Below, in pieces: positions 14,950-42,628 of a stretch of 51,831 bases of DNA (its first letter is position 1; every line of letters begins with the position of its first letter). Source of the stretch: Spirochaetaceae bacterium. Lineage in GTDB: Bacteria > Spirochaetota > Spirochaetia > DSM-2461. The stretch spans positions 1-51,831 of the forward strand of contig JARGFR010000004.1 in the NCBI GenBank assembly GCA_029210985.1, given 5' to 3'. The notes beneath the pieces are model-generated. The model saw only the letters and a list, made by a program, of their open reading frames with translations, was not told where the DNA came from and searched no databases. Position numbers and translations under genes: made by a program.

Positions 14950-15523
14950 GAAGCACCTCCAGTGCATGTTCTTTTTCCCGACTTGTATTGATATTGGACA
15001 GGTGATCCGGATGGAGTGCCGGCAAGGCCTGTACTTCGGTGTACGCACCAAGTTCCAGTATGGCTCTGAGACCCGATCCCATTAGTTCCATCGCCGCATC
15101 GGTCAGATCGGCTTCATACACGGCAGGCAGCGGCAGGAATCCGCTCTTGCCCCCGTGATAAGCGACGATACCGTATCGATCTTCCCGGGCGTCCGTCAGG
15201 CGCTTCAGGTCGGCATGTTCCAAAAATGGCATATCGATGGGAACGAACAGCCAGCTGACTCCCGGGTATGAACGAAAGGCTGTCCAGAGAGCCCCCAGAG
15301 GGCCGCACCCCGATATCCGATCGATGATGCGGGATCTCGTATCGAAGAGCGGGCTCCGTGCCTGATCCGGTCGGATAGAATAGAAGGTTTTCTCGGTGAG
15401 TTTCTGCAGCATCTGAAAAATCCGATCGGTTTCCGGCCTGTCATGATAGGAGAAGGTTTCCTTCGGACGTCCCATCCTCCGACTCCGGCCTCCGGCCAGA
15501 ACCAGTCCGCAGAGCGGTTTCAT
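14942..15523 (-). CDS. mobA: Molybdenum cofactor guanylyltransferase (MobA-like)
   Basis: This 193-residue cytoplasmic enzyme attaches GMP to molybdopterin to make the bis-MGD cofactor needed by nitrate reductase. The nucleotide-binding loop LAGGRSRRMGRPK occupies residues 9-21, and VPIDMPFL (about 93-100) gives the metal-binding aspartate. Its start overlaps the stop of the reductase gene by 4 nt, and AGAGGG precedes the ATG. The operon position fits dedicated cofactor supply to the upstream reductase. Confidence 0.92.
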   Translation of the reverse strand: MKPLCGLVLAGGRSRRMGRPKETFSYHDRPETDRIFQMLQKLTEKTFYSIRPDQARSPLFDTRSRIIDRISGCGPLGALWTAFRSYPGVSWLFVPIDMPFLEHADLKRLTDAREDRYGIVAYHGGKSGFLPLPAVYEADLTDAAMELMGSGLRAILELGAYTEVQALPALHPDHLSNINTSREKEHALEVLHG

Positions 15524-17622: not shown

Positions 17623-18917
17623 GCACTCCTTAATTTTCTCGACATCGAACCCCGCATCATCACCAGAAGTATCATCAGAGCCGAAAACACCGGGAGGACG
17701 ATAAACACCGTGAACCCCCGGGCGTAGCCGATGTTGGAACCGGAACGGGTGACGAACCACGCCATGAGGTTCGGGATGACAAATCCTCCGAAAGCACCGA
17801 GACCACCCACCCAGCCGGCTGCGCCGCCGATGGCATCGGGAATCTCCTGAGGAACGAGTTTGAAGACGGCGGCGTTGCAGACACCCATGCCGACGGCCAT
17901 CAGAATGATGCCGGGAACCGCGAGAGACAGAGAGGTCGCCGCCACCACAAGTACGGCTCCAAGACCCGTCAAAACAAGAGAAAACAAGGCTGCCGCGGAT
18001 CCGCCGATGCGGTCCGCGATGGGACCTCCGGCGACTCGGAGCAGCGAAGCCGACAGCGAGTACATCGCCGTCAGTCCGCCGGCAAGTGCCAGAGAGGTAC
18101 CGTGGAAGGACATCCAGTACTTCGGAAGCCAGCCGGTCAGAGCCATGAACCCGCCGAAAGTGCAGAAATAGACGGCAACCAGGGCCCAGGTCTGCCAGGT
18201 TCCGGCCGAGTGACTCAGGCTTTCCGATATTCTGGCTTTGGGAAACAGTTCCTGACCAAATGAGTCCCTGGCTTCCCTTCTGGCATCTTCCGATGAACGT
18301 CCGGCTTTCAGGAGCTGAAAATACCAGGCGTTCTTTCCGAAGTAGGCATACCCGATAATTCCCAGCGCCAAAAGAATCATCCAGATGAAATAGGATCCGG
18401 CAAGTCCGACGAGCGGCAGTGTGACGGCGGAAAGCATCAGCGCGAACAGTCCGGGCGCCAGGTTTCCGACCCCGGCGTAGATTCCGAGGGCCGTCCCCTG
18501 CCTGGATTGAGGAAACCAATAAGAGGTCTGAGAGATTCCGACCGAGAACGTGGCGCTGCCGCAGCCGGCCAGAATCCCGAAGGCCAGCAGCCAGGGATAG
18601 AAGCGCCCGATATCCTCACCCGCCAATGAAATAAGAACCGCAAGGCCCAGAATACCGGAGAGGGAGATCAGCAGAAGTATCAGAAAAGGTTTACGCCCCC
18701 CTGTGGTATCGACCATCGCGGAAAAAGGTATCCGGAGGAGTGATCCGGATAGATTCGGTATAGAAATCAGCAGCCCCGCGAGAGCCGGTGTCACGCCGGC
18801 GCCTTCTTTTAGGAAACCGACGGTTGGACCGAATAGGGATACTGCCGCGAAGCCGATGAAGAAACCGAGAGTTGCCCCGATGAGCCCTTGAGTTGAGTTT
18901 CCTTTGATTTCCGCCAC
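17619..18917 (-). CDS. narK: Nitrate/nitrite transporter, MFS NarK type
   Basis: This 432-residue protein of the major facilitator superfamily has about twelve helices. NarK-like features include GVGNLAPGLFALM (about 145-160), GWVGGLGAFGGFV (about 367-380) and the IPNLSGSLLRIPFSAMVDTTGGRKP loop (about 50-75) with the conserved arginine. It imports nitrate or exchanges nitrate for nitrite at the inner membrane. GTG at 18917 is used, with GGAGG about 8 nt upstream. It is the first gene of the nitrate operon and overlaps the reductase start by 4 nt. The intergenic region shared with the divergent Crp/Fnr gene holds a 14-nt palindrome 59 nt upstream of this start. Confidence 0.92.
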   Translation of the reverse strand: MAEIKGNSTQGLIGATLGFFIGFAAVSLFGPTVGFLKEGAGVTPALAGLLISIPNLSGSLLRIPFSAMVDTTGGRKPFLILLLISLSGILGLAVLISLAGEDIGRFYPWLLAFGILAGCGSATFSVGISQTSYWFPQSRQGTALGIYAGVGNLAPGLFALMLSAVTLPLVGLAGSYFIWMILLALGIIGYAYFGKNAWYFQLLKAGRSSEDARREARDSFGQELFPKARISESLSHSAGTWQTWALVAVYFCTFGGFMALTGWLPKYWMSFHGTSLALAGGLTAMYSLSASLLRVAGGPIADRIGGSAAALFSLVLTGLGAVLVVAATSLSLAVPGIILMAVGMGVCNAAVFKLVPQEIPDAIGGAAGWVGGLGAFGGFVIPNLMAWFVTRSGSNIGYARGFTVFIVLPVFSALMILLVMMRGSMSRKLRSA

Positions 18918-18975
18918 AATTTACCTCCGGAAGTTCTCGATACCATGATTGTTGGAGAAATCCGGTCGGCGTGCG

Positions 18976-18989
18976 GTACCATATGGTAC
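18976..18989. promoter_or_regulatory. Palindrome GTACCATATGGTAC between narK and a crp-type gene
   Basis: This perfect 14-nt palindrome in the 86-nt divergent intergenic region lies 14 nt before the crp-type start and 58 nt before the narK start. That position suits an operator controlling both directions. It resembles the 12-nt palindrome at 186-197. The regulator encoded next to it has the recognition sequence NRPSLSR, whose target is not known to me. Confidence 0.5.
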
Positions 18990-19003
18990 AATTCCCATGA
19001 GAA

Positions 19004-19690
19004 ATGAACAGAAATGATCTGGCTGTGATACTGACATGCCCGCTATTCAAATCGGTTGACGATCCGGCACTGCCTCGTGATCTGGAGTCGCTGCCTTATC
19101 GGATGACCACACACAATATCGGGAACATCATTATGACGAGAAATGACCTCTACGACGATCTGATCATCATCCTATCCGGTGTCCTGGAAGCCATACAGGA
19201 AGACCGCGCCGGACACAATTTCATCGTCGAGACGCTAAAACCACCGGAAGCTGTGGCAACGGCGATTATGTTCTCCCCGGAGTCTCGGATACCGGTCACA
19301 CTGAAAGTGAGGGAAACCTGTCGAATCTATGCCATTTCGCGTAAATCGCTGCTCTGGCTTTGTTCTCGGTATCAGCCTGTTCTATCCAGTCTTCTACTCG
19401 ATATGGGAGCACGGGCCGCGTTTCTGGCAAACAAGCTTCGATTCCAGGCCTTTTCGTCTATTCGCCAAAAACTGGCGGTGTTTCTGTCTGAACAGCTGGC
19501 CCTGGGCAGGACGAGTATCACGGTCAACAAAGAACATCTGGCAGAAACATTCGGCGTCAACCGTCCTTCTTTATCCCGGGTATGCCGGGATTTGGCGGAT
19601 CAGGGCATTATTCGGCTTGAGAAGAGGTCACTGGTCATCCTCAAGCCGGAGACTGTGGCCATTTTGGCCGATTCGGTGGTTGATCAGTAG
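19004..19690 (+). CDS. Crp/Fnr-family regulator divergent from the nitrate operon
   Basis: This 228-residue regulator has an N-terminal beta-roll domain (about 15-125), a dimer helix (about 128-155) and a winged helix-turn-helix (about 165-215) with recognition helix GVNRPSLSRVCRDL. It lacks the cysteine cluster seen in the regulator at 4997-5710, so it should sense a different signal. Its divergent placement next to the narK-nasA-mobA operon and the shared palindromic intergenic region suggest that it controls nitrate uptake and reduction. ATG at 19004 has only a weak upstream purine run. The ligand could be nitrate, nitrite or NO, but no motif shows which. Confidence 0.87.
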   Translation: MNRNDLAVILTCPLFKSVDDPALPRDLESLPYRMTTHNIGNIIMTRNDLYDDLIIILSGVLEAIQEDRAGHNFIVETLKPPEAVATAIMFSPESRIPVTLKVRETCRIYAISRKSLLWLCSRYQPVLSSLLLDMGARAAFLANKLRFQAFSSIRQKLAVFLSEQLALGRTSITVNKEHLAETFGVNRPSLSRVCRDLADQGIIRLEKRSLVILKPETVAILADSVVDQ

Positions 19691-19758: not shown

Positions 19759-20409
19759 ATGTGTTTGTTGATCAGGGTTGGTATTGCAGACGATGAAGAC
19801 CTCGTTCGAGACGGTATTGCGGCGCTGCTCGCAAGCCGAACCGGCTTAATTGTGGTATCGACCGTATCGACGGCGGCCGAAGCCATCGAGCTTGCCGGCT
19901 CGGGAGCGATTGACGTACTCCTGCTCGATGTTCAGCTCGGCGGCCGAGGCGGTATCGATGCGCTCGAAGAAATCGTCCGCCGGACTTCGAATCACGGAGA
20001 ATCCCCGGTACGGGTGATTATGGTGAGCAGCATGCCGGAAGAAGAGTACGGCATCCGCGCGATCCGCGCCGGCGCTTCAGGCTACATTCCCAAGGCCAGC
20101 GAACCGGGGCTTCTTGAGGAAGCGGTCCGGTCGGTCGCCTCAGGCAAACGCTTCATCACGCCCCGAATCGCCGAGCTGCTTGCCGAATTCGCCGAACACG
20201 GTTCGGATCTGCCGCATCAGCGGCTTTCACATCGCGAAACCATCGTATTCGAACGTCTGGCCGCGGGCCGGAGCGTCACCGAAATAGCCGATGAGCTCGC
20301 ACTCTCGGCGAGTACAGTCAGCACTTATCGCGGGAGGATTCTGGAAAAACTCAGACTCCAATCCACCGCGGAAATCATCCGGTACGCGGCACACCACGGG
20401 CTGGTTTAA
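19759..20409 (+). CDS. NarL/LuxR-family response regulator
   Basis: This protein of about 215 residues has an N-terminal receiver (about 5-125; acidic pair DDE, phosphoacceptor in LLLDVQL, lysine in PKAS) and a C-terminal LuxR-type helix-turn-helix (about 150-212; LSHRETIVFERLAAG, STVSTYRGRIL). It is a DNA-binding output protein for one of the kinases that follow. The ATG at 19759 lies only 1 nt after AAGGA, so TTG at 19765 (7-nt spacing) may be the real start. It opens the signalling cluster but is separated from the next gene by 95 nt containing a hairpin, so it may form its own transcript. Confidence 0.9.
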   Translation: MCLLIRVGIADDEDLVRDGIAALLASRTGLIVVSTVSTAAEAIELAGSGAIDVLLLDVQLGGRGGIDALEEIVRRTSNHGESPVRVIMVSSMPEEEYGIRAIRAGASGYIPKASEPGLLEEAVRSVASGKRFITPRIAELLAEFAEHGSDLPHQRLSHRETIVFERLAAGRSVTEIADELALSASTVSTYRGRILEKLRLQSTAEIIRYAAHHGLV

Positions 20410-20429
20410 AGGAAACCCACCACTCCTTC

Positions 20430-20448
20430 TGTCGTTGAAACAACGACA
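20430..20448 (+). terminator. Hairpin after the LuxR-type regulator, possible weak terminator
   Basis: TGTCGTTG (20430-20437) pairs perfectly with CAACGACA (20441-20448) around an AAA loop. The sequence after it is TGTCTTTC, with few T residues, so it would be a weak terminator or an attenuating or processing hairpin between the response-regulator gene and the large kinase operon. The stem covers a possible ATG at 20448, one reason I place the kinase start at 20505. Confidence 0.4.
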
Positions 20449-20504
20449 TGTCTTTCACGCATCCGCCGACATACGTTCCGACTCGGCGAAGTTATCCTTG
20501 TCTC

Positions 20505-22775
20505 ATGCAAGAGCACCATGCCACCACATCCGAATTGCTCGAATTTATGCTCAACCATGCCGACGCATGGCTCATCACGGTGAGTTCCGATCTGACGATA
20601 ACCGCATGGAACACCATCGCACGACGAGTCAGCGGTTACGATCAGTCGGATTTTTCGACTCTCCCGGAACTTGCCGGTCTGCTCATACCCGACCCGACGG
20701 AACGCACACATATGCTTTCCATTTTTACCGGGCTCGGTGAAGTCGGCGAGCGGGTCAGTCAAATCAGAACACCCGTTGTCACACGTGCGGGGGCTAATCG
20801 CATGATAGAGTGGTCCATCGATTTTCTTCCGGATCCCGGGGTAGCGGATCAGAAAATCGCCGTCGCCGTGGGCATCGATCTGACCGATCGTCTCGCCGGG
20901 GAAGCCGCGCTCTATCGGAATGAAACTATCCACCGTCTGCTCTTGGAAAACCTCCAGGAAGGTATCTGGTGGATAGATTCGAAAGGCCGGACTCTCTATG
21001 TGAACTCACACCTCCTAAAAACCCTTGCTGTTCCTTCGGCGAAACTGATTGGAAGACGGATCAGCGATTTTCTCCCGGTCGGTATCGACGCCTTAAACGC
21101 ACCTGTTTCTCTGGATACAACTCTCACCCGCGCCGATGGTTCGGCAGCTTACGTTCGAGTCACCGGCGGTCCCCTTGACTCCCATAATGATGGAGTGGGC
21201 GGTGCTCTGCTGAGTATTGTCGACCTCTCCGAAAAGCGGCGCTTGAACAGTGAGTATACATTTCTCATCAAAGCGGTCACCCAAGCCCATGAGAGTGTCG
21301 TCATCACCGATGCGGATTCGGCAATCCGATATATCAACCCGGCATTCACCCGTGTTACCGGTTACTCGGAGAAAGAGGTCATCGGACGGAATCCCCGCAT
21401 TCTACAGAGCGGCGAGCACAACCAAGATTTCTACGAAGCACTTTGGGCACAAATCTCGTCGGGCAGAGAATGGAAGGGCGTCTTACGAAACCGACGAAAG
21501 GATGGAACGCTTTACTCCGAAGAAGGGTCGATATCGCCGGTGTACGATGAGAACGGTATCATTACCGGTTACATCGGAGTGAAGAGGGATATCACACATG
21601 AGCTGGAGCTGCAGGAATATCTGCAGACCAGCCAGAAACTCCAGGCGGTGGGTACGCTCGCCGGTGGTATCGCCCACGACTTCAATAACATCCTTATGGC
21701 TATCATGGGCTATACCGAACTTGCTCGAACCGACGCTATGAACGATTCAACTCTCGCGCGACAGCTCGATTCCATTCGAACGGCAGCGAACCGGGCACGT
21801 GATCTGGCCGATCAGCTGCTCACCTTCAGCCGCGGCGGCAGCGGCGGCAGCGGCAGCGGCCCAACTGACTTAGCGGAAGCGGTATCCGAAGCCGTCGCGC
21901 TGCTCCGTGCGACGACACCCACCACGATAGCCATCTCAGTCGATCAGGAAATAACGCCTTACCGCGTCTGCGTCGGGCGGACGGGAATTGTCCAGATTGT
22001 CATGAATCTCGGTTTGAACGCGGTTGCAGCGATGCTCCCTGACTCGGGCGGACACATCACAATTACCAGTCGCACGGTACAGGCGCGGCATCCGGATCTG
22101 GTATTGACAGTCACTGATGACGGGATAGGCATGGACGATAAGACTCGTGCGCGGATATTCGAGCCGTTCTTCAGCACCCGGCCGGTGGGCAAAGGAACCG
22201 GTATGGGTCTCGCGGTGGTGCACGGGATGATGTCCGCCGCCGGCGGGACTATTCACGTCACCTCAACAGTAGGTGAGGGAACAAGTTTCGTGCTGACCCT
22301 GCCGGCCTTCATTGAACACCCGTCGAAGGAGGGTGGAAATTCCGAAAACAGAGATAAGCCGGACGGGATTGAAGCGTCCGAAGGTCAACTCTCTGCAAAC
22401 AATGAACTCATCATGATCGTGGACGATAAACCGGCACTGGTCGAGATGCTCAGTACGTTGCTCAAACGTCGCGGTTATCGCGTGGCGGGATTCACCGACC
22501 CGCTCGCCGCATACGATTACTTTGCCGAAGATCCGTCCCAATTCTCACTGGTCCTCACCGACATCACGATGCCGGCTTTGCGAGGCGATCGACTCGCAGA
22601 GCGAATCCACTCGGTCCGGCCGAGAATCCCAATTGTGGCTTACACAGACTATTCGGCAGAAGTGAATGAAACACAAGCGGCGGCGGCCGGCATTACCCGC
22701 CTGCTCCACAAGCCGCTCGAAACGGACAAGCTCGCGGATGTGCTTCGAAACGTCCTGCTTAAGGAGATAATATGA
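20505..22775 (+). CDS. Hybrid histidine kinase: three PAS domains, kinase core and C-terminal receiver
   Basis: This 756-residue cytoplasmic kinase has PAS domains at about 10-125, 138-245 and 253-370. A HisKA dimerisation domain follows with phospho-acceptor His391 in GGIAHDFNN, then a HATPase domain (about 485-605; N-box [11 protein letters not shown]-boxes DDGIGMD and GTGMGLAVV) and a receiver (about 635-750; VDDKP, LTDITMP, HKPL). No membrane helices are present. A pure Gly/Ser run, GGSGGSGSG, links HisKA to the ATPase domain, which is odd. ATG at 20505 is preferred to one at 20448 because the latter lies inside a hairpin; neither has a clear Shine-Dalgarno. It overlaps the next receiver gene by 4 nt, suggesting phosphotransfer to it. 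Confidence 0.9.
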
Positions 22776-23140
22776 GTACGATACTGATTGTCGATGACGA
22801 ACCGATGGTAGCGGATGTCCTGACAACTCTGCTCACCACATATGGCCATACGGTCACCACCCGGACGAACTCGGCCGAGGCGCTCGATCTTATCGAAAAC
22901 ACCTACGATCTCTACCTATTCGATCTGCGCATGCCCGACCCGAATGGAGCGGAACTGACCGAGGCGGTGATGCGTATACACCCTGAGGCCCGAGTCCTCA
23001 TCATGACGGCATTCCCCGGAGACCCGATTGCAGCCCAGGCGCTCCGCGCCGGCGCCGTCGCGCTGGTTAAAAAACCGTTTGAAATCGGGAAGATTCTCGC
23101 TCACCTCAACCAGGCAGTGAGCCAAAGGAGGGAGAAATGA
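22772..23140 (+). CDS. Single-domain response regulator (CheY-like)
   Basis: This 122-residue stand-alone receiver has acidic residues Asp8/Asp9, phosphoacceptor Asp51 in LFDLRMPDP, the conserved Thr79 and Lys101 (VKKPF). With no output domain it must act by protein contact or as a phosphorelay intermediate. It is flanked by a hybrid kinase and the DUF342 protein, with 4-nt start/stop overlaps on both sides. Confidence 0.92.
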   Translation: MSTILIVDDEPMVADVLTTLLTTYGHTVTTRTNSAEALDLIENTYDLYLFDLRMPDPNGAELTEAVMRIHPEARVLIMTAFPGDPIAAQALRAGAVALVKKPFEIGKILAHLNQAVSQRREK

Positions 23141-24651
23141 TGGTAGAACAGAGATTAATCAACGAATCCCGAGATCTGATCGACTCAATTCGTGTAGAGC
23201 GTTCCACAGTCACGGAAAAAAAATGGCTCCGCGACGCCCCGGGTATGGTCGATGAGGGGGAAATCCGCCGGCGTGCCATTGAGGATCATGTGGACGGCTG
23301 TGCCAGGGTTACCCTCTCGGACGACGAGATGATTGGATATATATCTCTCTATCCGCCGCAAGGCTTCGGCCAGCCCCTGAAAACCTCCGATGTCTATGCC
23401 CGGCTTTGCGAATCCGGTGTGTCCCATGGTGTCCGAAGCAAACTGGTGGAAACGGCGCTTTTTACATGTAATACCGAGCGAACACCGCTCCACTCCGTGG
23501 AAGTCGCATTCGGTACCACACCAATCCATAGTAAGCCGAAGCATTTGCGAATAGTCGAACACAACAAAGAGAGTGTCGAGACGTCCGACAAGGAAGCTGT
23601 GGACCACCGTGTCCGCAGCAGTCTTTCACTCGCGGAAGCGGGAGAGACGCTCGCGGTTGTCGAGCCGGAAGTTGTCGGCCGGGACGGAATCACCATAACC
23701 GGCAGGATTCTCGAACATCGGACACGCACGATTCCGCAACTCAAAACAGGCGATAATGTGACGTTGGTGGACAATAAGATTGTAGCGGAAATATCCGGCC
23801 TTCTCCACCTGAAAGAATCGGTTATCTCCGTTTCACCGACTCTCCCCCTCTCTAAGGGAGTTGGTTATCACACGGGCAACATCGATTTTCAAGGCGATGT
23901 GATAATCAGCGATCGGATCGCGGACGGGTTTACGGTCAGCTGCACAGGTACGCTCGCCTCGTCTGTGACCATCGATTCGTTCGGTATTTCCTGCAATACG
24001 CTGACCAGCTCGCAGGGACTCATCGGACACGTTGATGCGGCCGTTGATGTGGCCGCCGATGCGTCGCTGCGCTTTATTCAGAATGCGTCTATCAACGTCG
24101 GCGGCACCCTTCGGGTTGCACACAGTGCGCTGAAATCCCGTATTAAAGCACACAATTACGTCGAACTCGCCCACGGAAGCAGCGTGGTTGGCTCAACGAT
24201 CCGGGCCGGGCTCGGGGCGGAAGTTTTCAATGTCGGCAGCCCCGGCGCCGCAGCCTCGGAAATCTATCTCGGCATCGACTTCGGTGTGGATGAGCGGCTG
24301 GCGACAATCCGCGATCATACACTCGCACTGAGCGAGAAACTGCGCGATGTCCGCCTCGCTCTCTCCCGGGAAGAACAGACGCCTCAATTGGTTGGGCTGG
24401 AGCACGATCTCCAAGCCGCCATCGCCACCCTTGCGGAAGAAGCCGGAGAACTCGTGTCTCACCTCGACCGCAACGAAGAGGCATCACTCGTCGTTCACGG
24501 CACGATCCATGCGGGAACGTATGTCGAGATCTGCCACCGATCGCTGCTTATTGAGCGAACGGTGAGCCAATGTGCGATCCGACTCGACCGGAAAACAGGC
24601 AGTATCGTCGTCAAACCGCTCGGTGCGTCCAAAAAAGGAGAACTGACATGA
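23137..24651 (+). CDS. DUF342 / FapA-family protein
   Basis: This 504-residue protein has an N-terminal FapA-like domain (about 1-235). A right-handed beta-helix region follows (about 240-385), with the family signature VGYHTGNIDFQGDVIISDRIADG near 246-268. A coiled-coil stretch (about 390-450) precedes a last beta segment. DUF342 proteins often accompany chemotaxis, flagellar or c-di-GMP genes, and FapA-like members localise polarly in vibrios, but no catalytic activity is established. ATG overlaps the receiver stop, with GGAGG upstream. It is sandwiched between a CheY-like protein and an HD-GYP phosphodiesterase, which argues for a structural or localisation role in that signalling set. Confidence 0.88.
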   Translation: MMVEQRLINESRDLIDSIRVERSTVTEKKWLRDAPGMVDEGEIRRRAIEDHVDGCARVTLSDDEMIGYISLYPPQGFGQPLKTSDVYARLCESGVSHGVRSKLVETALFTCNTERTPLHSVEVAFGTTPIHSKPKHLRIVEHNKESVETSDKEAVDHRVRSSLSLAEAGETLAVVEPEVVGRDGITITGRILEHRTRTIPQLKTGDNVTLVDNKIVAEISGLLHLKESVISVSPTLPLSKGVGYHTGNIDFQGDVIISDRIADGFTVSCTGTLASSVTIDSFGISCNTLTSSQGLIGHVDAAVDVAADASLRFIQNASINVGGTLRVAHSALKSRIKAHNYVELAHGSSVVGSTIRAGLGAEVFNVGSPGAAASEIYLGIDFGVDERLATIRDHTLALSEKLRDVRLALSREEQTPQLVGLEHDLQAAIATLAEEAGELVSHLDRNEEASLVVHGTIHAGTYVEICHRSLLIERTVSQCAIRLDRKTGSIVVKPLGASKKGELT

Positions 24652-25679
24652 CACGAGTACTCGTTGTTGATGATGAACCGATGATCGGCGCTCTGGTAAG
24701 CGGAGCTCTGGCAAACCGCCATTTCGAGACGACTGTGGTTAACGATATCAAATCGGCGGAAAAGGTGCTGGAACAGGCAAATACGGACGTTCTGGTTTGC
24801 GATATCAACCTGGATAGTGAATCGGGCATGGTTCTGATTGACCACGAACGCGTTCGGAACGATCGTGTCGCCGTCGTTGTGATGAGCGGTTCGGCCGACC
24901 TGCCTGTCGCAATGGACGTGATTCACCGTGGTGCATTTGATTTCGTCGCGAAGCCGTTTTCGTCGGAGGAGCTGTTAAGAGCGGTGAACGACGCGAAAAA
25001 CAGGCGCAATCGAGAACTCGCCGAACAGGAGCGTCGCCTGGAACTCGAATTCCTCGTCCGCGAACGGACCGAGGAGCTTTCCACCGCTTTTGGCGCGGTG
25101 GAGGAGGCCTACGACAGGACAATCGAGGCACTCGGGGCCGCGCTGGATCTGAGAGATACGGAAACCGAGCAGCACTGCCGGAACGTGGCGGAGATGTCGC
25201 TCCGGATTGCTTCGGCATATGGGATTAATGACCCGCTCACCCTGCGCGATCTGCGGTGGGGCGCTCTCCTGCACGATATCGGGAAGATCGGCATACCGGA
25301 TGCAATTCTCCGCAAGCCGGGTCCGCTCACGGCGGAAGAACGGAAAATCGTGAACACACATCCGGTACTCGGCGCCCGTCTGATCGGGGAGATCGACTTC
25401 CTCTCCGGGGCCATCACAATCGTGCGCCACCACCACGAACGGTATGACGGCACCGGGTATCCCGACGGACTGACAGGTGAAGAGATTCCCCTCCTCGCTC
25501 GGATATTCGCGGTAACAGACGCGGTGGATGTCCTGATCGGCGGACGGGTTTATCAGTCGGCGCTCACCCTCCAGGAGGTACGAGAGGAGGTAGCGCGGTC
25601 GGCGGGAACACACTTCGATCCAACCGTCGTTGGGTGCTTTCTCAGCCTCGAGCTGGGCACCCAGGGGTTTGTGGCATGA
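24648..25679 (+). CDS. Response regulator with HD-GYP c-di-GMP phosphodiesterase domain (RpfG-like)
   Basis: This 343-residue protein has an N-terminal receiver (about 1-120; Asp9, phosphoacceptor Asp52, Lys102 in AKPF), a coiled-coil linker (about 120-158) and an HD-GYP domain (about 158-338). Key residues are His176, His209-Asp210 (LLHDIGK), HHHER (261-265) and GTGYP (268-272), so it should be an active enzyme hydrolysing c-di-GMP when phosphorylated. ATG at 24648 is used, with AAAAAAGGAG 7 nt before and a 4-nt overlap with the DUF342 gene; the longer open frame upstream is inside that gene. It links the kinase cluster to second-messenger control of motility or attachment. Confidence 0.94.
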   Translation: MTRVLVVDDEPMIGALVSGALANRHFETTVVNDIKSAEKVLEQANTDVLVCDINLDSESGMVLIDHERVRNDRVAVVVMSGSADLPVAMDVIHRGAFDFVAKPFSSEELLRAVNDAKNRRNRELAEQERRLELEFLVRERTEELSTAFGAVEEAYDRTIEALGAALDLRDTETEQHCRNVAEMSLRIASAYGINDPLTLRDLRWGALLHDIGKIGIPDAILRKPGPLTAEERKIVNTHPVLGARLIGEIDFLSGAITIVRHHHERYDGTGYPDGLTGEEIPLLARIFAVTDAVDVLIGGRVYQSALTLQEVREEVARSAGTHFDPTVVGCFLSLELGTQGFVA

Positions 25680-26050
25680 ATACCGAACATGTTCTTGTGG
25701 TTGATGACGACCCCGGCGTATTGGCCGTCGTGGTGGAAATGTTGGCTTCCATCGGATACAAAACGACGGCGGCTTCCGGCGCACGAAGCGCCGTCGGCCT
25801 TCTGCCGCAGATAAAACCTGATATTATCATTACCGATATTGTGATGCCGGATGGGGAAGGAATGGAGCTCATCCTCCACCTCACCCGATGCAAAGAAAAA
25901 CCATCGGTGATTGCGATGTCCGGAAACCCCACCGGAGTTCTATTCCTGCATGCCACCGAGCTGCTCGGTGTCAATGCCGTTCTGCGAAAACCTTTCAGCC
26001 GAACCGAATTGGAAGAGGCGCTCGCGGTGGCGAGTGCAGGGGCTGCATGA
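25676..26050 (+). CDS. Single-domain response regulator
   Basis: This 124-residue receiver has VVDDDPG at the acidic pocket, a phosphoacceptor aspartate in IITDIVMPDG, Ser in AMSGN and Lys in RKPF. There is no output domain. It overlaps the HD-GYP gene by 4 nt and is 28 nt ahead of the next kinase. It may take part in a phosphorelay with either neighbour. Confidence 0.92.
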   Translation: MNTEHVLVVDDDPGVLAVVVEMLASIGYKTTAASGARSAVGLLPQIKPDIIITDIVMPDGEGMELILHLTRCKEKPSVIAMSGNPTGVLFLHATELLGVNAVLRKPFSRTELEEALAVASAGAA

Positions 26051-26078
26051 TAAACTGCCGGGAGGCGGGGGGCTATTG

Positions 26079-27428
26079 ATGAACAAGAGACCGGAATTAA
26101 TCGCGGCACTCATCTACATGACAGTCGGTGCCCTCTGGATCGTCTTTTCCGATTCGCTGGTTCACACAATCGCCTCCGGTTCTTCCACACTCACGGTGGA
26201 AAAACTGCAGCTCGCGAAGGGCTTCTTTTTCGTGGCGGCTTCCGGAATCCTGGTTTACCTTCTTGTCCGCTCCTCCACGCGGCGCACTCAGCGCCATAAC
26301 GCGGAACTCGAACAGCACATCGCCGCCCGCACGGCCGAGCTCTCGGATCTCTATCACCGCGCACCCTGCGGATATCACTCCCTCGATTCGGAAGGCCGAT
26401 TCGTCCGGGTGAACGACTGCGAAATCGAGTGGCTGGGGTATAGTCGGGAGGAGCTCCTGGGAACCCGCTTCTCCGATTATCTCGAACCCGAATCTTTGCG
26501 TATTTTTAAGCAAAACTTCCCTGGTTTCATGCTCACCGGCGAGGTTGAAAATCTGGAATTCATACTTCGGCGCCGGGACGGCAGCAAGCTGCCCATCCTC
26601 CTGAACGCCACCGCCATCCGTGATGAAGAGGGAAAGTACATTATGTCACGCTCCAATATGTTCGACATGACGGAGCTGCTTGAAGCGCGTGAGGATATCG
26701 AGTCACTCAACCGGGAGCTCACCGAACGCAACCGTGAGCTCGAAACAAGGAACAGCGACCTCGCCTCGTTCTCCTATTCGATTTCCCACGATCTGCGTGC
26801 ACCGGTTCGCGCCATCACCGGTTTCTCGGAGATTATTGCCCGCCGCCATGGAACCACTCTTCCGGATGAAGCACGGCACTACCTAAATAATATCACCGCG
26901 GCAGGAAACAGGATGAACCGGCTGATCGATGATCTTCTGCGGTATGCCCGACTCGGTTCGACATCGCTGGAGATTGTTCCTCTCGCTCTGGAACCGCTGC
27001 TGGAGGGGCTTTCTTCCGAATTTACGCCCACTCTGGAGCCGCTCTCCGGCTCCCTGCATTGCGCCGCCGGCCATCTTCATGTGCGGGCCGAACACTCGCT
27101 GTTGGAGCAAATCCTCTCAAACCTCCTGGAAAACGCCATTCGCTACCGCTCCCCCACGCGCCCGCCGGTCATATCGATAGAGGCAGCCCATACCGATGGC
27201 GGTGTGGAAATTGCCGTTGCGGACAATGGAATTGGAATACCGCCCGAACATCACGAGCGCATTTTTTCACTCTTTCAGCGCTTGCAGAACGACGATGAGG
27301 AGGGAACGGGCATCGGGCTCGCACTCGCCCGCCGAGCCGCCGAGCTCCTGGGCGGCTCACTATCCCTGACATCCATACCCGATGTGGGAACAACCTTTAT
27401 TCTCACCCTTCAGGAGGCCCCTCGATGA
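26079..27428 (+). CDS. Membrane histidine kinase with PAS domain
   Basis: This 449-residue protein has two membrane helices (about 9-25 and 46-65) enclosing a short periplasmic loop, a coiled-coil linker, a PAS domain (about 88-200), HisKA with His237 in SISHDLRAPVRAI, and a HATPase domain (about 335-447; NLLENAIRYR, DNGIGIP, GTGIGLALA). The DLRAP type of H-box is shared with phytochrome-like kinases, which typically phosphorylate Rcp1-like receivers, and exactly such a receiver is encoded next with a 4-nt overlap. ATG at 26079 has a G-rich but poorly spaced upstream site; the frame is open back into the preceding gene. Confidence 0.9.
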   Translation: MNKRPELIAALIYMTVGALWIVFSDSLVHTIASGSSTLTVEKLQLAKGFFFVAASGILVYLLVRSSTRRTQRHNAELEQHIAARTAELSDLYHRAPCGYHSLDSEGRFVRVNDCEIEWLGYSREELLGTRFSDYLEPESLRIFKQNFPGFMLTGEVENLEFILRRRDGSKLPILLNATAIRDEEGKYIMSRSNMFDMTELLEAREDIESLNRELTERNRELETRNSDLASFSYSISHDLRAPVRAITGFSEIIARRHGTTLPDEARHYLNNITAAGNRMNRLIDDLLRYARLGSTSLEIVPLALEPLLEGLSSEFTPTLEPLSGSLHCAAGHLHVRAEHSLLEQILSNLLENAIRYRSPTRPPVISIEAAHTDGGVEIAVADNGIGIPPEHHERIFSLFQRLQNDDEEGTGIGLALARRAAELLGGSLSLTSIPDVGTTFILTLQEAPR

Positions 27429-27862
27429 AGAGCCCTTTTATACTCATGGTGGAAGACGACCCAATGGATGCCGAACTGATGCTCGCCGCCCTTGACGACA
27501 CCGGTTCATGCACCCATGTGGAGCATGCGAAGTCGGCTGAGACGGCCTGGTCTTTCCTCGAAAGAGTACGCACTGATAGAAGAGTCTCGGAGCTGGCGGC
27601 GGTGCTGCTGGACTTGAATCTCCCCGGTATAAGTGGGATTGAGCTGCTAAAGCGGATTAAGGAAACACCGGAATTCCGACGCGTTCCGGTGGTTATCCTG
27701 ACCACATCGCTCGAGCCGCCGGATGTTGAAGCCTGTTACGACGCGGGAGCCAACAGCTATCTTGTCAAACCGGGAACCTTCGCCGAACTCTCAGAACTCG
27801 CCGAACGGATTCACCGCTACTGGGCCGGGGACAATCGCAGGCCTCCGGAGAGCGCCGCATGA
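27425..27862 (+). CDS. Rcp1-like single-domain response regulator
   Basis: This 145-residue receiver has the spacing of the Rcp1 group: VEDDPMDAEL at the acidic pocket, phosphoacceptor Asp63 in LLDLNLPG, ILTTS, and Lys in VKPGTF. It overlaps by 4 nt with both the upstream kinase, its likely phosphodonor, and the downstream hybrid kinase. Confidence 0.92.
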   Translation: MKSPFILMVEDDPMDAELMLAALDDTGSCTHVEHAKSAETAWSFLERVRTDRRVSELAAVLLDLNLPGISGIELLKRIKETPEFRRVPVVILTTSLEPPDVEACYDAGANSYLVKPGTFAELSELAERIHRYWAGDNRRPPESAA

Positions 27863-29820
27863 TCCGGGAAAAACCTCGAGTCCTATACGTGGATGACAAT
27901 CGTCTCGATCGTGAACTCATTAGGGACGCGCTCACCCACGCGGAACGGGATTACGAACTGATTGAGGCTTCCTCCGCACAGGAATTTGAAGCGGCACTGA
28001 ACGAGACCCGATTCGATGTGGTTCTCACCGACTTCGATATCTGCGGATTCAAAGGACTGCAAGTCCTCGCGCGTGTGCATGAACGCTATCCCAAGCTCCC
28101 GGTGATAATCGTCACGGGAACCGGCAGTGAGGAGATAGCGGTAGCGGCGATGAAAAGCGGCGCGGCCGACTATATCTTCAAGAGTCCGAAATCCATCTCC
28201 CGCCTTCCGGCTTCAATCGAGGCGATACTTCATTTTCATCATCTCGCCGAGGAAAAGGCACTCGCGGAAATTTCTCTGCGGGAGAGCGAGGCGAGATTCC
28301 GCCGTGCCGTCATCGCGGCTCCGGTTCCGGTGATGATTCATGCCGAGGACGGTGAAATCATGACTATCAGCGACATCTGGCTTCAGCTGACCGGCTACGA
28401 TCGGAGTGAACTCACTTCAACGCGCACATGGGCCGAGCACGCCTACGGCAGGAGCACACCGGATACGCAGGAGACAATTTCCCAAACCTATGAAGGAACC
28501 GACCCCCGGGACGAAGGGGAATTTACCATCACCTGCGCCGACGGTTCGATGCGGATTTGGGCGTTCCGGTCCACCCCCCTCGGCCAGCTGCCGGACGGAC
28601 GCCGTTGCGCCATCAGCATCGCTTCGGACATGACCGAACACCGGAGACTCGAGGCCCAGCTCCGCCAGTCCCAAAAACTCGAAGCCGTGGGGCGGCTCGC
28701 CGGGGGTGTGGCCCACGATTTCAACAACATGCTGCAGGTCATCCTGGGGTACGCGGCGCTGGCGATAGACGAAATTGGCCCCTCATTGGAAGTTCCGGGT
28801 TGGCTGTTGATGATTATGGAGGCCGCTAAACGCTCCGCCAATCTGACTCGCCAACTCCTTGCCTTCGCCCGAATCCAGCCTCTTGAACCCAAGCCGGTAA
28901 AGGTTGAGGAGGCGCTGCCCGGTATCGTCAAGCTTCTCACCCGGATTGTGGAAGAACAGGTGACGCTGACATGCGAGGTGGCTCCCGAGACATGGGACGT
29001 TGAAGTCGACCCGGCCCAGCTCGATTCCATCGTGGCCAACCTGGTCATCAATGCTCGGGATGCGATTGCCGGCTCCGGCCGAATCGATGTGCGGGCGATG
29101 AATCGTTCCATACAATCGGCGGACCACATCGATCTCTTACCCGGCGACTATGTCGCCATCACCGTACGGGATACGGGCACAGGTATCGACCCGGACGCCC
29201 TCGACCGGGTATTTGAACCATTCTTCTCCACCAAGGAACGCGGTATAGGAAGCGGACTGGGACTCGCCACTGTATTCGGAATCGTTCGTCAAAATCATGG
29301 ATGGGTTTCCGTCGAAAGCGAACTGAGGAAAGGTTCCATTTTTACCGTACTGCTTCGGCGGTATAATCCGTCACCTGGTATGAAACAGGAAAAGAGTCCA
29401 AGGGTTCAATCCGAAGAGGCCAGGCGTGTTCTGCTCGTGGAGGACGACGAAGCGGTACTCCGTATCACGGAGCGATTACTCACCGATCTTGGGCACCGTG
29501 TCACCGCCACCGGCGACCCGATCTACGCCCTTGAGCTCGTGCGGCAGGGCATCGGGCCCGTAGACCTCATTGTATCGGATGTTGTGATGCCGGGCCTGAA
29601 CGGTCCGGAACTTGTGGAAGAATTGCGAAAGGTGATGCCCGAAGTTCCCGTACTCTACACCTCCGGATATCCCGCCGGCACGGTAAGCGATCACGGAGTA
29701 CTCGATGACGATATCCACTACCTCCCGAAACCGTTTTCGCGGGAAGAGCTGGCACAAAAAATCTCGGAAACATTCCTGAGCGCCCCGGCCGCCGGCCCGA
29801 CATCTAACGGAGAGGACTGA
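27859..29820 (+). CDS. Hybrid histidine kinase: receiver, PAS, kinase core, receiver
   Basis: This 653-residue soluble kinase has an N-terminal receiver (about 5-125; phosphoacceptor Asp58 in LTDFD), a PAS domain (about 140-262), HisKA with His286 in GGVAHDFNN, HATPase (about 375-505; NLVINARDA, DTGTGID, GSGLGLATV) and a C-terminal receiver (about 525-640; VEDDE, VSDVVMPG, PKPF). Receivers at both ends suggest that it integrates input from another kinase and passes phosphate on. The start overlaps the Rcp1-like gene by 4 nt, and its stop shares a base with the DctP-like gene start (TGATG), so binding-protein expression is coupled to it. Confidence 0.92.
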   Translation: MIREKPRVLYVDDNRLDRELIRDALTHAERDYELIEASSAQEFEAALNETRFDVVLTDFDICGFKGLQVLARVHERYPKLPVIIVTGTGSEEIAVAAMKSGAADYIFKSPKSISRLPASIEAILHFHHLAEEKALAEISLRESEARFRRAVIAAPVPVMIHAEDGEIMTISDIWLQLTGYDRSELTSTRTWAEHAYGRSTPDTQETISQTYEGTDPRDEGEFTITCADGSMRIWAFRSTPLGQLPDGRRCAISIASDMTEHRRLEAQLRQSQKLEAVGRLAGGVAHDFNNMLQVILGYAALAIDEIGPSLEVPGWLLMIMEAAKRSANLTRQLLAFARIQPLEPKPVKVEEALPGIVKLLTRIVEEQVTLTCEVAPETWDVEVDPAQLDSIVANLVINARDAIAGSGRIDVRAMNRSIQSADHIDLLPGDYVAITVRDTGTGIDPDALDRVFEPFFSTKERGIGSGLGLATVFGIVRQNHGWVSVESELRKGSIFTVLLRRYNPSPGMKQEKSPRVQSEEARRVLLVEDDEAVLRITERLLTDLGHRVTATGDPIYALELVRQGIGPVDLIVSDVVMPGLNGPELVEELRKVMPEVPVLYTSGYPAGTVSDHGVLDDDIHYLPKPFSREELAQKISETFLSAPAAGPTSNGED

Positions 29821-30836
29821 TGACAAGAGCACACTTTAAAATCCGCACCGGCCGGAGGGTCTTCCTGTTTCTCTCATTCATCTGGGCGGCTGCCGGTCAT
29901 GCTGCGGCCCAGCCTCTATTCCGAATTTCACTGGAGAATGCGGAAAACCATGTCCAGGCCATCGCTGTTCAGCGCTTCGCCGACGCGCTGGCCGAACGAA
30001 CATCGGGAGAACTTCGTGTTGAGGTGTACACCGACGCTCGGCTATTCCGCGACCGTGACGTGGTGAGGGCGCTCTACGACGGAAAGGTGGAAATGGCGGT
30101 ACCCGGAACATGGCAGCTCGACCGCTTCGAACCATCCGTGGGAACACTGCTGCTCCCGGCCTTCTACGGCCGTCCGGCCCCGTTCTAGGACGAGAGGATC
30201 GACGGTGAATTCGGAAATGAAATCGGCCGACGTATCGAGGCGAGCACCGGGACTGTGGTTCTGGACGATTGGATCAACTTAGGACCAATTCATCTTTTCA
30301 CGGTAAACACCCCGATTCGGAATCATTCTGACATCGCCGGACTCCGAATCCGATACGCCGGCGGAGTTGTGAATGAGCTTCGTCTCGCCGCCCTGGGAGC
30401 CGATCCGCGTCTGATTGCCTGGCCCGATTTCCCCGAGCACCTGTGTTCCGGCACGGTGGACGGTGTACTCACCTCCTACGAATCCGTGGCGAGTGCGTCA
30501 CTGTGGGAAGAGGGAATCCGCTACGCGTTCGAAGACTCTCAGTACTTCGGCCGGTATGTCCCTCTGGTGAGCGCCGGGTTCTGGCGGCGAATCCCGGAGA
30601 GTCTGCGCCAAGTTATCTCAGACACATGGGACGAACACGTGGAACTCGCACGTGAAGATGCCGCACAGGCACAGGCACGCGCAAAGGAAACACTGCGGAG
30701 TCACGGCGTCACAATCGTCGTTCCCTCCCAGGACAATCTCACCGCGGCGCGCGGCCGGCTCGCCGAAAAACAGCCGGAGATGATTGAGCGCCTCGGACTC
30801 GATTCCGAGATAGTCTCCTTCATACCCTCGCCATGA
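29820..30836 (+). pseudogene. DctP-like periplasmic solute-binding protein, interrupted by an amber codon
   Basis: The reading frame encodes a signal peptide (about 1-32, ending GHAAAQ) and a TRAP-type DctP fold: FRISLENAENHVQAIAVQRFADAL early, then, after the interruption, NTPIRNHSDIAGLRIRYAGG, the substrate-binding arginine segment. A TAG at 30186-30188 splits it after 122 codons, yet the same frame continues without any shift through to 30836 with family-like sequence on both sides (VDG/DWINLG). A single substitution therefore explains the break. No TRAP permease is adjacent; the overlap with kinase genes on both sides suggests that the protein served as a ligand-sensing partner for the downstream membrane kinase, which is itself frameshifted. 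Confidence 0.85.
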
Positions 30837-32513
30837 GCGATGCACACCCGGTACAGCGCTGGTGGATCGGGTTAATGGCCCTGATCATCCTATTCATCTG
30901 GGCACTCACCGGCTGGTATCTCGTTCGAGACAGGCGGGAGCAGCTTGCGTTTGCCAAAGCATCCTCAAAGATGCAGGTGCAGATTCTCGCCGAACATACC
31001 GCAGCGCTTTTTCGGCAGATCGAACTCGGCCTTCGGGCCTACCCGTGGACCGGAATAGAGGATACGGCTCCGGCGAACCATGGCGGCGGCGGTTGCCCAA
31101 GTCTTCGCCGCACTATGCTCGATATTCCCGGCTTGGATAACGCGGTAATAATGACGGCGGACGGATCGATATACTGCTCACTGCACGGCCGTGTCGAGGC
31201 CGGCTTCCCCCGCGAGGCACTCCTGATGCGGCATCGTGATGAACTGCTTGGATTCTCGATTATCCCGTCGGCTGAAGAACGAAATTTCCTGACACTCGGG
31301 ATTCGTCTCGACGATGAGCAAGGGCTGTTCGCCGGTGTGCTCGCCGCGACCGTGCCCGTGGACTATTTCACATCCCGATTTCGCTCCTATGGAACGGTGA
31401 ACGCCGAGATGATCGCCCTCTACGACGAGGAACAGGAGGTTCTGGTGCGGTGGCCTGTTCTGGAAGCGACACAAGAAATTTGCGCCGAGCCGCTGCTGGC
31501 CGGCGTTCCTGAGTCAGAACTGATTTCGGGCGGATTACTGTCGCTGGAAACGGAAAACGCCGTTTTGGCGATGTTCCAGCTCCCCGGTTTCGCTTATCGG
31601 ATTGTAATAGCGACGTCGAAAGGGATGATACTCGAACCGTGGCGGGCACATTTGGTGATTATTCTGGGAAGCGCCTTGCTTCTCAGTGTTACCATTATAA
31701 GCGCAAGTACATGGATTCGTACGGCTGAAGAGCGTAAGCGACGCGCCGACACAGAACTGGCGGCAAGTCGTACACGCGAACAGGAGGCCAAGATCAATCG
31801 CCTTGAAGGGCTGCGTGCCCTTGCCGGCGGTCTGGCTCACGACATCAACAACAGGATGATGGTTGTCCTTGGGAATTCTCAGCTGCTTGAATCCTTACCC
31901 GCCGGCGATACCGACGTACTCAAGAGCATCCAACAGGCGGCGCGCCGTACCTCGAAACTTAGCGAACAGATGCTCTTCGCGGCGGGGCATACCCCGATGG
32001 CGGTATCAACCGTCGACGTGGTCGAGGCTATCGCCGCACACGAGCCGCGTCTCCGGAAACTGGTGGGCGAGGACGCAGAATTGGTCATCGATGCGGGTTC
32101 GGAGTCTCTTCCGGTGACCGGAGAGGTGCGTCTGATTATCAGTGCGATTCGAAAACTGGTGGAAAAATGCCGGCGAGGCAACCCACATCCCAGGCGGCCG
32201 CATTGTTCTGGCAATTCGAGAAGCCCGTATCAAGGATTCACCCGAAGGTTACTGGTCCGACGAGATTGCCGCCGGTACATACACGGCGATCAGTGTGAAG
32301 GACAACGGAGAAGGTATTCATCTTCCGCATAGGGAGCGCGTCTTCGATCCCTTTTATTCGGCTCGGTTTCTCGGACGCGGTTTAGGACTGTCCGCGGCGG
32401 CCGGGATTGCCCGGCAGCATGGCGGCGCCATCTCCATTGAGTCTGAAACGGGACACGGAACAGCCGTCACACTCTATCTGCCGGGTGTTAAGGAGATGAA
32501 AACTCATGAATAA
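30833..32513 (+). pseudogene. Membrane histidine kinase, frameshifted in an A-run
   Basis: The gene encodes a kinase of about 559 residues once one base is removed. It has a membrane helix (about 12-30), a periplasmic sensor region (about 45-265), a second helix (about 273-295), HisKA with His336 in GGLAHDINN, then a HATPase domain. At the N-box, five A residues at 32163-32167 turn VEN-AGEA into VEK-CRRG, and the first frame stops at 32332. The frame one base over supplies the rest of the ATPase domain (DNGEGIH, GRGLGLSAA) to 32513. The total length of 1681 nt is one more than a multiple of three, consistent with a single inserted A. This may be a real mutation or a homopolymer sequencing error. 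It overlaps the DctP-like gene by 4 nt. Confidence 0.85.
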
Positions 32514-33135
32514 ACAGAGACCAACCAAAGCGATTCGCGATCTCATAGCGGCGGTTCCGACAACCTCTCAGCTTCCCTGGTGGGAGTGGGACATTATGAA
32601 GAATCGCGTGATCGCCGGCCCGCAGAAGGTGTCGATGCTCGGGTACGACCCCGTGGACTTTGAAGGCGCCGGATACCAGGCCTACACGGATCTACTCCAT
32701 CCGGAAGACTATGTGCGGGCCATGGACGCCATGCGCCGGCATCTGAACGGGCGGGCAACGTTGTATGAGACAGATTACCGGATCAGACGGAAATCGGGTG
32801 AGTACACCTGGTATATGGACCGCGGAGCCGTACTCGAATGGGATTCGGCAGGCCGTCCTCTTTTCCTCCGCGGAATCGTACTCGACCTTGGGCCGGAGCT
32901 GCGCGAGAAGGCACATGATGATGCCGTGATTCGGGCGATTCGGCTGGTCCTGCCGAATGCCGGCGGCGTTCCTGTCAGTGTCTGCGCCGAATGCGGACGT
33001 CTTCGTCACGGGACGAACGATTGGGTGGAAGTCACTGCTGATTTTGTTGCAGGTTTGCCGGCGGAGGTGAGTCACGGCCTCTGCCCGGACTGCATCATGC
33101 TGCTCTACCCGGCCATCGCAGGAAGTATTCTATAA
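32506..33135 (+). CDS. PAS-domain protein with C-terminal CxxC...CxxC motif
   Basis: This 209-residue soluble protein has a PAS_3-type domain (about 20-130, with the WWEWD start and YTWYMDRGAV core). A short C-terminal module follows in which CAEC (about 159-162) and CPDC (about 193-196) frame HGTNDWVEV and SHGLCP. This tail is seen at the ends of many sensor proteins and could bind zinc or sense redox state. No kinase or cyclase domain is present. It overlaps the frameshifted kinase by 8 nt and closes the signalling operon. Confidence 0.85.
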   Translation: MNKQRPTKAIRDLIAAVPTTSQLPWWEWDIMKNRVIAGPQKVSMLGYDPVDFEGAGYQAYTDLLHPEDYVRAMDAMRRHLNGRATLYETDYRIRRKSGEYTWYMDRGAVLEWDSAGRPLFLRGIVLDLGPELREKAHDDAVIRAIRLVLPNAGGVPVSVCAECGRLRHGTNDWVEVTADFVAGLPAEVSHGLCPDCIMLLYPAIAGSIL

Positions 33136-33284: not shown

Positions 33285-35429
33285 ATGACAATGCGAGCAA
33301 AAATTTCTCTGGGATTCGTGAGTATCATCGTCGTTTTCCTGATCGCGGTGGTGATGAGCATCATCTCCCTCAACAGCGCATCGGCGGGGTTTAACGAATA
33401 TCGGGGACTTGCCAGAGATACAAACCTGGCCGGACGCCTTCAAGCCAATATGCTGATGGTTCGTATGAATGCCAAAGATTTCATCATCACAGGCAGCGAT
33501 CAGGATCTCGATCAATTTAACGACTACTATGATTTGATGACTGAATTCATGGCCGAAGCGCAGCGGGATATCCAGAATCCGGAACGAGCGGCCCTCATTG
33601 ACGAAGCCGACGAACTGGTGAAAAAATATAGGGAGGCGTTTCAAGAAGTTCTCGCCGACATCCATGAGATATCCCGACTTCAAGCGGAAACCTTGGATGT
33701 TGTCGGCCCTGAAAATGAGCGTAAACTGACAGCAATCATCAGTTCGGCGGAAGCCGACGGAGACATGGCTGCGGCATACAATGCCTCCCATGCTCTCCGT
33801 TCCCTGCTGCTGGCCCGACTCTATTCGGCGAAATTTATCAGCACCAGCGATAAGGATGCAGCCAAAAGAGTGGGAGAGGAATTCCAACTGGTTGAGGGTT
33901 ATTACAGGACACTGAATGAACAGCTGCAGAACCAGAATCGACGGAACCTCCTGGGCGAGGCCCAGGAACTGACCGCCGCCTATCTGTCTACCTTCAATTA
34001 CGTTGAAAAAATTATACTGGAGCGTGATTCGGATATTACCGGTACGCTTGATGTTCTGGGTCCTGAAATTGCTCAAGATGTCGAGGATGTCAAGCTGTCG
34101 GTGATGGCCGATCAAGATGTTCTTGGCCCGCGTCTGCAGGCGGAGAACTCCCGTACCATCACCATGGTGACCGGATTAAGTATTGCTGCCGTTATTTTGG
34201 GTATCATCGTCGCACTGATTACCATCACCAGCATCCTGAAACAACTCGGTGCTGATCCGGCGATGCTGAAATCCATTATGGAAGATGTCGCAAAGGGTAA
34301 GCTCGATTTAGCCAATAACGACAGCAAGAATCCCAAGGGAGTTTACGCTTCGGTCATCCGCATGCTGAATGCTCTGAAAGAGAAAGTTGCTTCGGTAGAA
34401 CGAATGGCCGAACGCGACCTGACCGTGGATATCGTCGTGGCCAGTGATGAGGATGTCCTCGGTAATAGCCTGGTGACCATGAAAAGGAATCTGAACGATC
34501 TGCTGGGCCAGGTTGCCACAGCATCCGAACAGGTGAATGTCGGGAGCAATCAGATTTCCCAGACCAGTCAGCAGCTCAGTCAGGGGGCGGTTGAGCAGGC
34601 GGCCAGCGTCGAACAGATCAGCGCATCGGTCACCGAGGTGAACAGCCAGTCGGATGAGAATGCCAAGAGCGCAGCCGACGCCACGGATATCGCTTCAACA
34701 GCTGTCGCAAAGGCCAGAGAAGGCAATGATTTCATGCAGCAGCTGGTGTCGGCCATGGGAAGAATCAATACGTCGAGTGATGAGATTAATAAAATCGTCA
34801 AAGTGATCGACGACATTGCCTTCCAGATCAACCTCCTGGCACTCAATGCCAATGTCGAAGCGGCCCGGGCAGGCAAATACGGAAAGGGATTTGCAGTCGT
34901 GGCCGAGGAGGTCCGGACCCTCGCGACACGAAGTGCGGATGCCGTCAAAGAGACTGCCGCTATGGTGGAAGAAAGCAAATCCGCAATAACGACCGGAAAT
35001 GAAATGGCTGAGATTACCGCAAAGTCACTGAAGGAAATTGTTGACGGAGTGGACAGTGTCTCAAGCATGCTCGCGGAAATTTCAATGGCCAGCCGCCAGC
35101 AGTCAAAAGGAGTCGGTGAGATTTCCAGCGGATTGGAACAGATTGAGAAAGTGACCCAGGATAACTCGGCCAGTGCGGAAGAGAGTGCCGCGGCGTCTGA
35201 AGAACTGGCGTCCCAGGCGAATCAGCTGTCCGCGATGATCGGTCAGTTCCTTTTGGAGAGCCGGGTGACTCCCAAATCGTCGGCAGCGCCGACATCTCCG
35301 TTGGCCAGACCTGCCGTCACAGCTATGAATCGTCCGTCGACTCGGAGTCCTATCGGTATTGAAATGAAATCCAAATCGCCTGCATCCGCATCGATACATC
35401 TGGATGATGACGATTTCGGCAACTTCTGA
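33285..35429 (+). CDS. Methyl-accepting chemotaxis protein with HBM-type sensor
   Basis: This 714-residue chemoreceptor has a membrane helix at about 8-30 and a periplasmic helical bimodular (HBM-like) ligand domain of about 250 residues. A second helix lies at about 288-315, with a linker (HAMP-like) region to about 400 and a long methyl-accepting coiled coil. The conserved hairpin tip reads [21 protein letters not shown] (about 507-527). It ends in DDDDFGNF, an acidic tail with aromatic residues common in such receptors. It senses a small organic ligand and controls CheA. ATG at 33285 follows TTAGGAG. A 149-nt gap separates it from the signalling operon, so it likely has its own promoter. 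Confidence 0.94.
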
Positions 35430-42539: not shown

Positions 42540-42566
42540 TCGACACCTCCGGGTTGTTGAAGTTGG

Positions 42567-42590
42567 GGACCCGGCCGCAAGACCGGGTCC
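42567..42590 (-). repeat. Intercistronic GC-rich hairpin between dctP and dctQ
   Basis: GGACCCGG and CCGGGTCC pair in a perfect 8-bp stem with an 8-nt loop, 38 nt after the dctP stop. On the transcribed (minus) strand no T-run follows. Hairpins here are common in binding-protein transporters, where they protect the upstream message from decay or cause partial termination, so that binding protein exceeds permease. Confidence 0.65.
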
Positions 42591-42628
42591 AATGTCTTAA
42601 TAGTACAGTCCGAAATGGTTCGGATAAC

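Follow-up and report, generated by a model that had tools for sequence, protein, structure and literature searches.

The stretch of DNA analysed here (the window) comprises 51,831 nt of contig JARGFR010000004.1 from the environmental spirochaete Spirochaetaceae bacterium GCA_029210985.1, whose own genome is labelled G000 below. Eleven genes, g1 to g11, occupy positions 20505-33135 on the + strand (Table 1). The successive junctions from g1 to g11 measure -4, -4, -4, -4, +28, -4, -4, -1, -4 and -8 nt, giving nine overlaps of 1-8 nt and a single gap, between g5 and g6, which is 28 nt long when g6 is read from the ATG at 26079 and 25 nt if the TTG at 26076 is used. All ten junctions are as the initial annotation of this DNA described them, and the domain names that it gave to the genes agree with Pfam. 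The cluster has a GC content of 0.56-0.60, against roughly 0.51-0.52 directly downstream. The acidic pair, the phospho-acceptor Asp, the Thr/Ser and the Lys are kept in each of the eight receivers examined, including the LuxR-type regulator and both receivers of g8, and the H, N and G1 boxes are present in kinases g1, g6 and g8. The protein families of the operon are all known.

Table 1. Features of the signalling cluster and their supporting evidence
Feature	Position	Strand	Evidence or remark
LuxR/NarL-FixJ-type response regulator (REC + HTH), cluster head	19759..20409	+	NCBIfam best matches UvrY/NarL type
19-bp palindrome TGTCGTTG-AAA-CAACGACA, candidate operator	20430..20448		between LuxR gene and g1
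g1, PAS-repeat hybrid histidine kinase, C-terminal REC	20505..22775	+	Pfam PAS/HisKA/HATPase/REC; H, N, G1, G2 boxes intact
g2, free-standing receiver paired with FapA	22772..23140	+	Pfam Response_reg 1.1e-23; DD/D/T/K intact
g3, FapA/DUF342 beta-solenoid protein, receiver-linked subfamily	23137..24651	+	Pfam FapA 3.1e-31, FapA_N 1.1e-25; AF2; tree
g4, REC-HD-GYP c-di-GMP phosphodiesterase (predicted)	24648..25679	+	Pfam HD_5 8.6e-38 plus REC
g5, free-standing receiver	25676..26050	+	Response_reg 1.8e-20; orthologs in G415, G416, G417
g6, PAS histidine kinase, N-terminal membrane segment	26079..27428	+	Pfam; H, N, G1 boxes; orthologs in G416, G417
g7, Rcp1-like receiver	27425..27862	+	Pfam REC; absent from G416 and G417
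g8, REC-PAS-HK-REC kinase	27859..29820	+	Pfam; orthologs in G416, G417, 50-52% identical
g9, DctP-family solute-binding protein, TAG-interrupted	29820..30836	+	Pfam DctP 3e-19
g10, membrane histidine kinase, double-Cache periplasmic sensor, frameshifted	30833..32513	+	HisKA 1.5e-06; sensor model
g11, PAS protein, CxxC...SHGLCPDC tail	32506..33135	+	PAS-type NCBIfam matches

Three other Spirochaetota genomes, G415 (locus L003), G416 (L004) and G417 (L005), and a genus mate of the window, G021, served for comparison. A LuxR-type regulator also lies just upstream of the cluster in G415 (72% identity) and G417 (63%). Judged from this layout, the unit begins earlier than g1, at the LuxR-type regulator; the initial annotation, which was correct on the eleven genes, overlooked this head and with it a transcriptional output. 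Between the two genes lies a palindrome of which G000 and G415 each have a single perfect copy, in both cases just 3' of luxR. The copy in G417 has two mismatches and is likewise situated just 3' of luxR, and the remaining two-mismatch matches across the genomes are near the control level. An intrinsic terminator at 20430 was considered and set aside, since the window has a weak T-run there and G415 and G417 have none. An operator is thus the likelier reading of the palindrome, although it may instead form an RNA hairpin. An Rfam search gave no match, and promoter and terminator scans returned matches no more numerous than in shuffled sequences. Beside the cluster, at 14942-19690, are genes for a CRP-family regulator, a NarK-like transporter, a molybdoenzyme of the formate dehydrogenase/nitrate-reductase type and a MobA-like protein, with a possible nitrate connection to the NarL-type regulator, and an MCP gene (33285-35429) follows the cluster.

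The initial annotation missed two lesions in the periplasmic-input branch. The DctP-family gene g9 contains an in-frame TAG at 30186-30188, and less than 2 kb away g10 is put out of frame by 1 nt at an A5 run (32163-32167) within the N box. Both reading frames are uninterrupted in G416 and G417, and a programmed frameshift in g10 was ruled out because the relatives have no shift at all. The two genes overlap by 4 nt as a binding-protein gene and a periplasmic-sensor kinase gene, an adjacency kept in G416 and G417, and the g10 sensor model (low depth, pLDDT 70) matches dCache domains with an E of 1.6e-09, LuxQ being among the matches. The DctQ/DctM membrane subunits of a TRAP transporter are absent from 19759-33135; a TRAP-like set read from the sequence at 40741-43657 forms a separate operon on the opposite strand. 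The lesions in g9 and g10 may be real decay or an assembly error. The whole system could be decaying in G000 after transfer, with the DctP-kinase input dead and the remainder on its way out, as two lesions so close together in genes that are open in relatives would suggest; but the other operon genes are open with their motifs intact, and a draft metagenome assembly can contain consensus errors or strain mixtures, such that we regard general decay as possible and somewhat improbable.

Conservation of gene order had been set as the test of the original proposal, and it is borne out in distant genomes. G416 and G417 keep the order g1-g2-g3-g4-g5-g6-g8-g9-g10; g7 was not found between g6 and g8, nor g11 after g10, in either locus, and the G416 contig starts inside g1 and so shows only its 3' part. 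The proposed tight coupling is also supported; many junctions in these two loci overlap too, by 1, 4 or 8 nt. G415 has a short form, LuxR-g2-g3-g5-g8 as far as the contig end, in which g1, g4 and g6 are missing from the cluster and no HD-GYP gene is found on its contig stretch. Because both order and tight junctions recur in other genomes, this arrangement is, on comparative grounds, not due to chance.

The cluster proteins are 45-60% identical in these distant genomes, with up to nine genes in order. RpoB of the window is 73-74% identical to that of G415-417, which share 83-87% among themselves, and 91% identical to that of G021. The g3 protein of the window is 59% identical to that of G415, while those of G415 and G416 share 48%, and g2 and the LuxR-type regulator show a like pattern. 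In the FapA tree, the window protein pairs with that of G415 within the G415-417 group, with full support, and no FapA more than 33% identical to g3 was found in the other genomes among the 26 family genomes compared. Because RpoB places the genomes far apart and yet the cluster proteins are close, the cluster has probably moved by horizontal transfer between distant spirochaete lineages, the simplest account. A viral origin was rejected, as the viral contigs held no relatives of g3, and a mis-binned, wholly foreign contig is unlikely, since parts of both flanks (11-14, 37-44 and 49-51 kb) best match the window's own genus; the contig may be a chimera. It is in any case mosaic: the left-flank segments at 352-956 and 7069-9217 have their better match in G415-417 DNA, whereas the window's own genus is matched at 11.4-14 kb and in parts of 37-51 kb. 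At 2722-2763, 42 bp are left of the 3' half of a tRNA-Asn gene, which is present in intact form at positions 15543-15625 of contig C298 in the same genome; the remnant may be the attachment-site scar of an integrated island.

To our knowledge, FapA/DUF342 proteins are common in bacteria and almost unstudied. The g3 protein passes the Pfam cut-offs for PF03961 and PF20250 with 109.4 and 90.5 bits against thresholds of 31 and 27. Its AF2 model (pLDDT 81) is rich in short strands, in keeping with a beta solenoid, and has a long helical hairpin; a PDB fold search with g3 returned nothing at E <= 0.001, the sole weak lead among the top matches being the MinC beta-helix. When scored with a profile of receiver-linked FapAs, the Spirochaetota FapAs fall into three classes, namely the receiver-linked proteins (587-743 bits), a short class of about 470 aa and a long class of about 650 aa, which G000 also possesses, encoded separately on contig C95. 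A tree was built from 80 FapAs, and the 19 that have a receiver directly upstream all sit in one 24-member clade, whose support is 85/74 and whose exact border is unsure, and the receiver-linkage label requires 3 changes against a mean of 17 when shuffled. Among the neighbourhoods read, no receiver stands beside the short paralogs; in several genomes of the family, judged by the translations, the short FapA gene is flanked on one side by arginine-biosynthesis-like genes and on the other by a groL-like gene, a conserved neighbourhood (L103:7229-8620, L101:8389-9834 and L102:8426-9781). The distribution argues that the old, general part of the system is a free-standing receiver whose gene immediately precedes that of a distinct FapA/DUF342 subfamily, and not the eleven-gene set. 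We consider this pair the best new point, above the eleven-gene set. A literature search, with most subscription papers outside its scope, returned no description of the receiver-FapA pairing or of the operon, and no paper that joins DUF342 with HD-GYP.

Hybrid kinases are common neighbours of the receiver-FapA loci, and the remaining neighbours vary. In the window, g4 has the HD, K, H, HH and D metal ligands and the GYP motif, all intact and conserved with G416 and G417, and an HD_5 score of 130 bits; its predicted activity is hydrolysis of c-di-GMP. A REC-HD-GYP gene lies within 5 kb of the receiver-FapA pair in G000, G416 and G417 and at the rearranged loci of G021, G463 and G064. When the window's own lineage is left aside, 3 of the 10 loci have such a gene where 0.22 would be expected, with a chance of about 0.001 in a post hoc test on loci that are not a random sample. 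The G021 locus reads REC-HD-GYP, REC, FapA, a 1467-aa kinase and then a receiver with a CxxC tail of the g11 type. This kinase has a fused phosphonate-type binding-protein domain, two receivers and an Hpt, and mirrors the DctP-kinase end of the window cluster. By their gene content, the two loci unite binding-protein input, REC-FapA and HD-GYP in two different ways. The periplasmic solute input proposed earlier is thus seen to recur, as a kinase-fused binding domain, but its two genes are broken in the window itself. Elsewhere, the G064 locus includes CheB, and at L009:11343-13998 and L095:7043-9746 a hybrid kinase-REC-FapA series is followed by RsbRD-STAS (RsbR-STAS) and HATPase/SpoIIE-type genes, which suggests a coupling to partner switching.

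The initial annotation had placed DUF342 between a single receiver and a receiver-HD-GYP gene and had proposed convergence of the operon on c-di-GMP, with DUF342 as its putative organiser. The adjacency of receiver and FapA is upheld at 19 loci, but an HD-GYP neighbour is missing from most receiver-FapA loci. Because it is also missing from the G415 cluster (LuxR-REC-FapA-REC-g8), convergence on c-di-GMP is not obligatory.

We favour, at about even confidence, a mobile multi-input phospho-signalling operon in which kinases act through a receiver on FapA, the HD-GYP protein degrades c-di-GMP and the LuxR-type regulator adjusts transcription. The old core would be a kinase and the free-standing receiver g2 beside the FapA-type g3, to which g4, further receivers and kinases were added. 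Kinases g1, g6 and g8 would phosphorylate the receivers, as would g10 where it is intact, upon stimulation by the DctP-like binding protein. Depending on its phosphorylation state, g2 would bind g3 and so control the assembly or cellular place of FapA; phosphorylated g4 would degrade c-di-GMP at the FapA site, such that active inputs would lower c-di-GMP, locally or globally. The LuxR-type regulator would adjust transcription of the operon via the palindrome between its gene and g1. The putative g2-FapA step draws on the analogy with FapA of Vibrio vulnificus, which binds EIIA-Glc only in the dephosphorylated state (PMC6877527). The step from g9 to g10 is suggested by gene adjacency and the dCache-like sensor, with BctC-BctDE as precedent, the binding protein BctC signalling via its two-component partner (PMC5812351). 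No fixed pathway is required, because G415, which has the closest FapA relative, is without g1, g4 and g6 in its cluster. Outputs vary because other receiver-FapA loci have CheB or RsbR/SpoIIE-type neighbours, and a broader proposal, which we put forward tentatively, is a hitherto undescribed spirochaete switch in which a free-standing receiver determines how a dedicated FapA scaffold assembles or where it is located, with swappable outputs (HD-GYP, CheB, RsbR/SpoIIE) docked to the scaffold, the window operon being its horizontally spread c-di-GMP version.

Alternatively, receiver-FapA may be a motility or cell-pole device, in which receiver phosphorylation gates FapA to control the periplasmic flagella, with c-di-GMP turnover as a secondary effect of a neighbour. 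FapA genes accompany flagellar genes in Borrelia, among others (PMC11607428), the Vibrio protein is a flagellar factor of the cell pole (PMC6877527), and the MCP gene after the window cluster and CheB in G064 point the same way. However, receiver-linked FapA differs from the long class, which is separately present in G000, and the receiver-FapA neighbourhoods that were read, with partial annotation, showed no recognisable flagellar genes; a role of this kind is conceivable and, in our estimate, rather doubtful. That independent two-component systems were loosely gathered in a transfer hot spot, their overlaps reflecting general compactness and no common pathway, is unlikely, for although neighbouring kinases are reshuffled between loci, g1, g4 and g6 are missing from G415 and the contig flanks are mosaic, the order and overlaps of up to nine genes are kept at 45-60% identity and REC-FapA adjacency is retained across most of one clade.

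A receiver fixed beside FapA in one clade offers a direct, testable handle on FapA function and switching. The pairing occurs in the Spirochaetota, a phylum in which motility and c-di-GMP control matter for ecology and medicine, and here a large signalling operon is apparently moving between distant spirochaetes.

The RpfC/RpfG system consists of a hybrid kinase with an Hpt, a REC-HD-GYP protein and the DSF synthase RpfF. The window operon resembles it in that a REC-HD-GYP phosphodiesterase shares an operon with hybrid kinases, but it has several kinases and receivers and a FapA protein, and neither an Hpt domain nor an RpfF-type DSF synthase gene was found in it. The g9-g10 pair recalls LuxP-LuxQ and BctC-BctDE, in which a binding-protein gene directly precedes that of a membrane kinase (PMC5812351 for BctC), and the predicted dCache-type sensor of g10 is structurally similar to that of LuxQ; the window binding protein, in contrast, is of the DctP family (TRAP type), in an operon without transporter genes, and both genes are broken. 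The idea of a scaffold that positions a c-di-GMP phosphodiesterase is shared with the polar HubP-PdeB system (PMC9061725), although the proteins differ and in the window it is gene linkage alone that points to scaffolding. A parallel in principle is Vibrio FapA-EIIA-Glc, where a FapA-family protein answers to the phosphorylation state of its partner (PMC6877527 and papers cited there). The window g3 likely belongs to a different FapA subfamily, and its putative partner would be, in place of a PTS protein, a CheY-like receiver encoded beside FapA itself.
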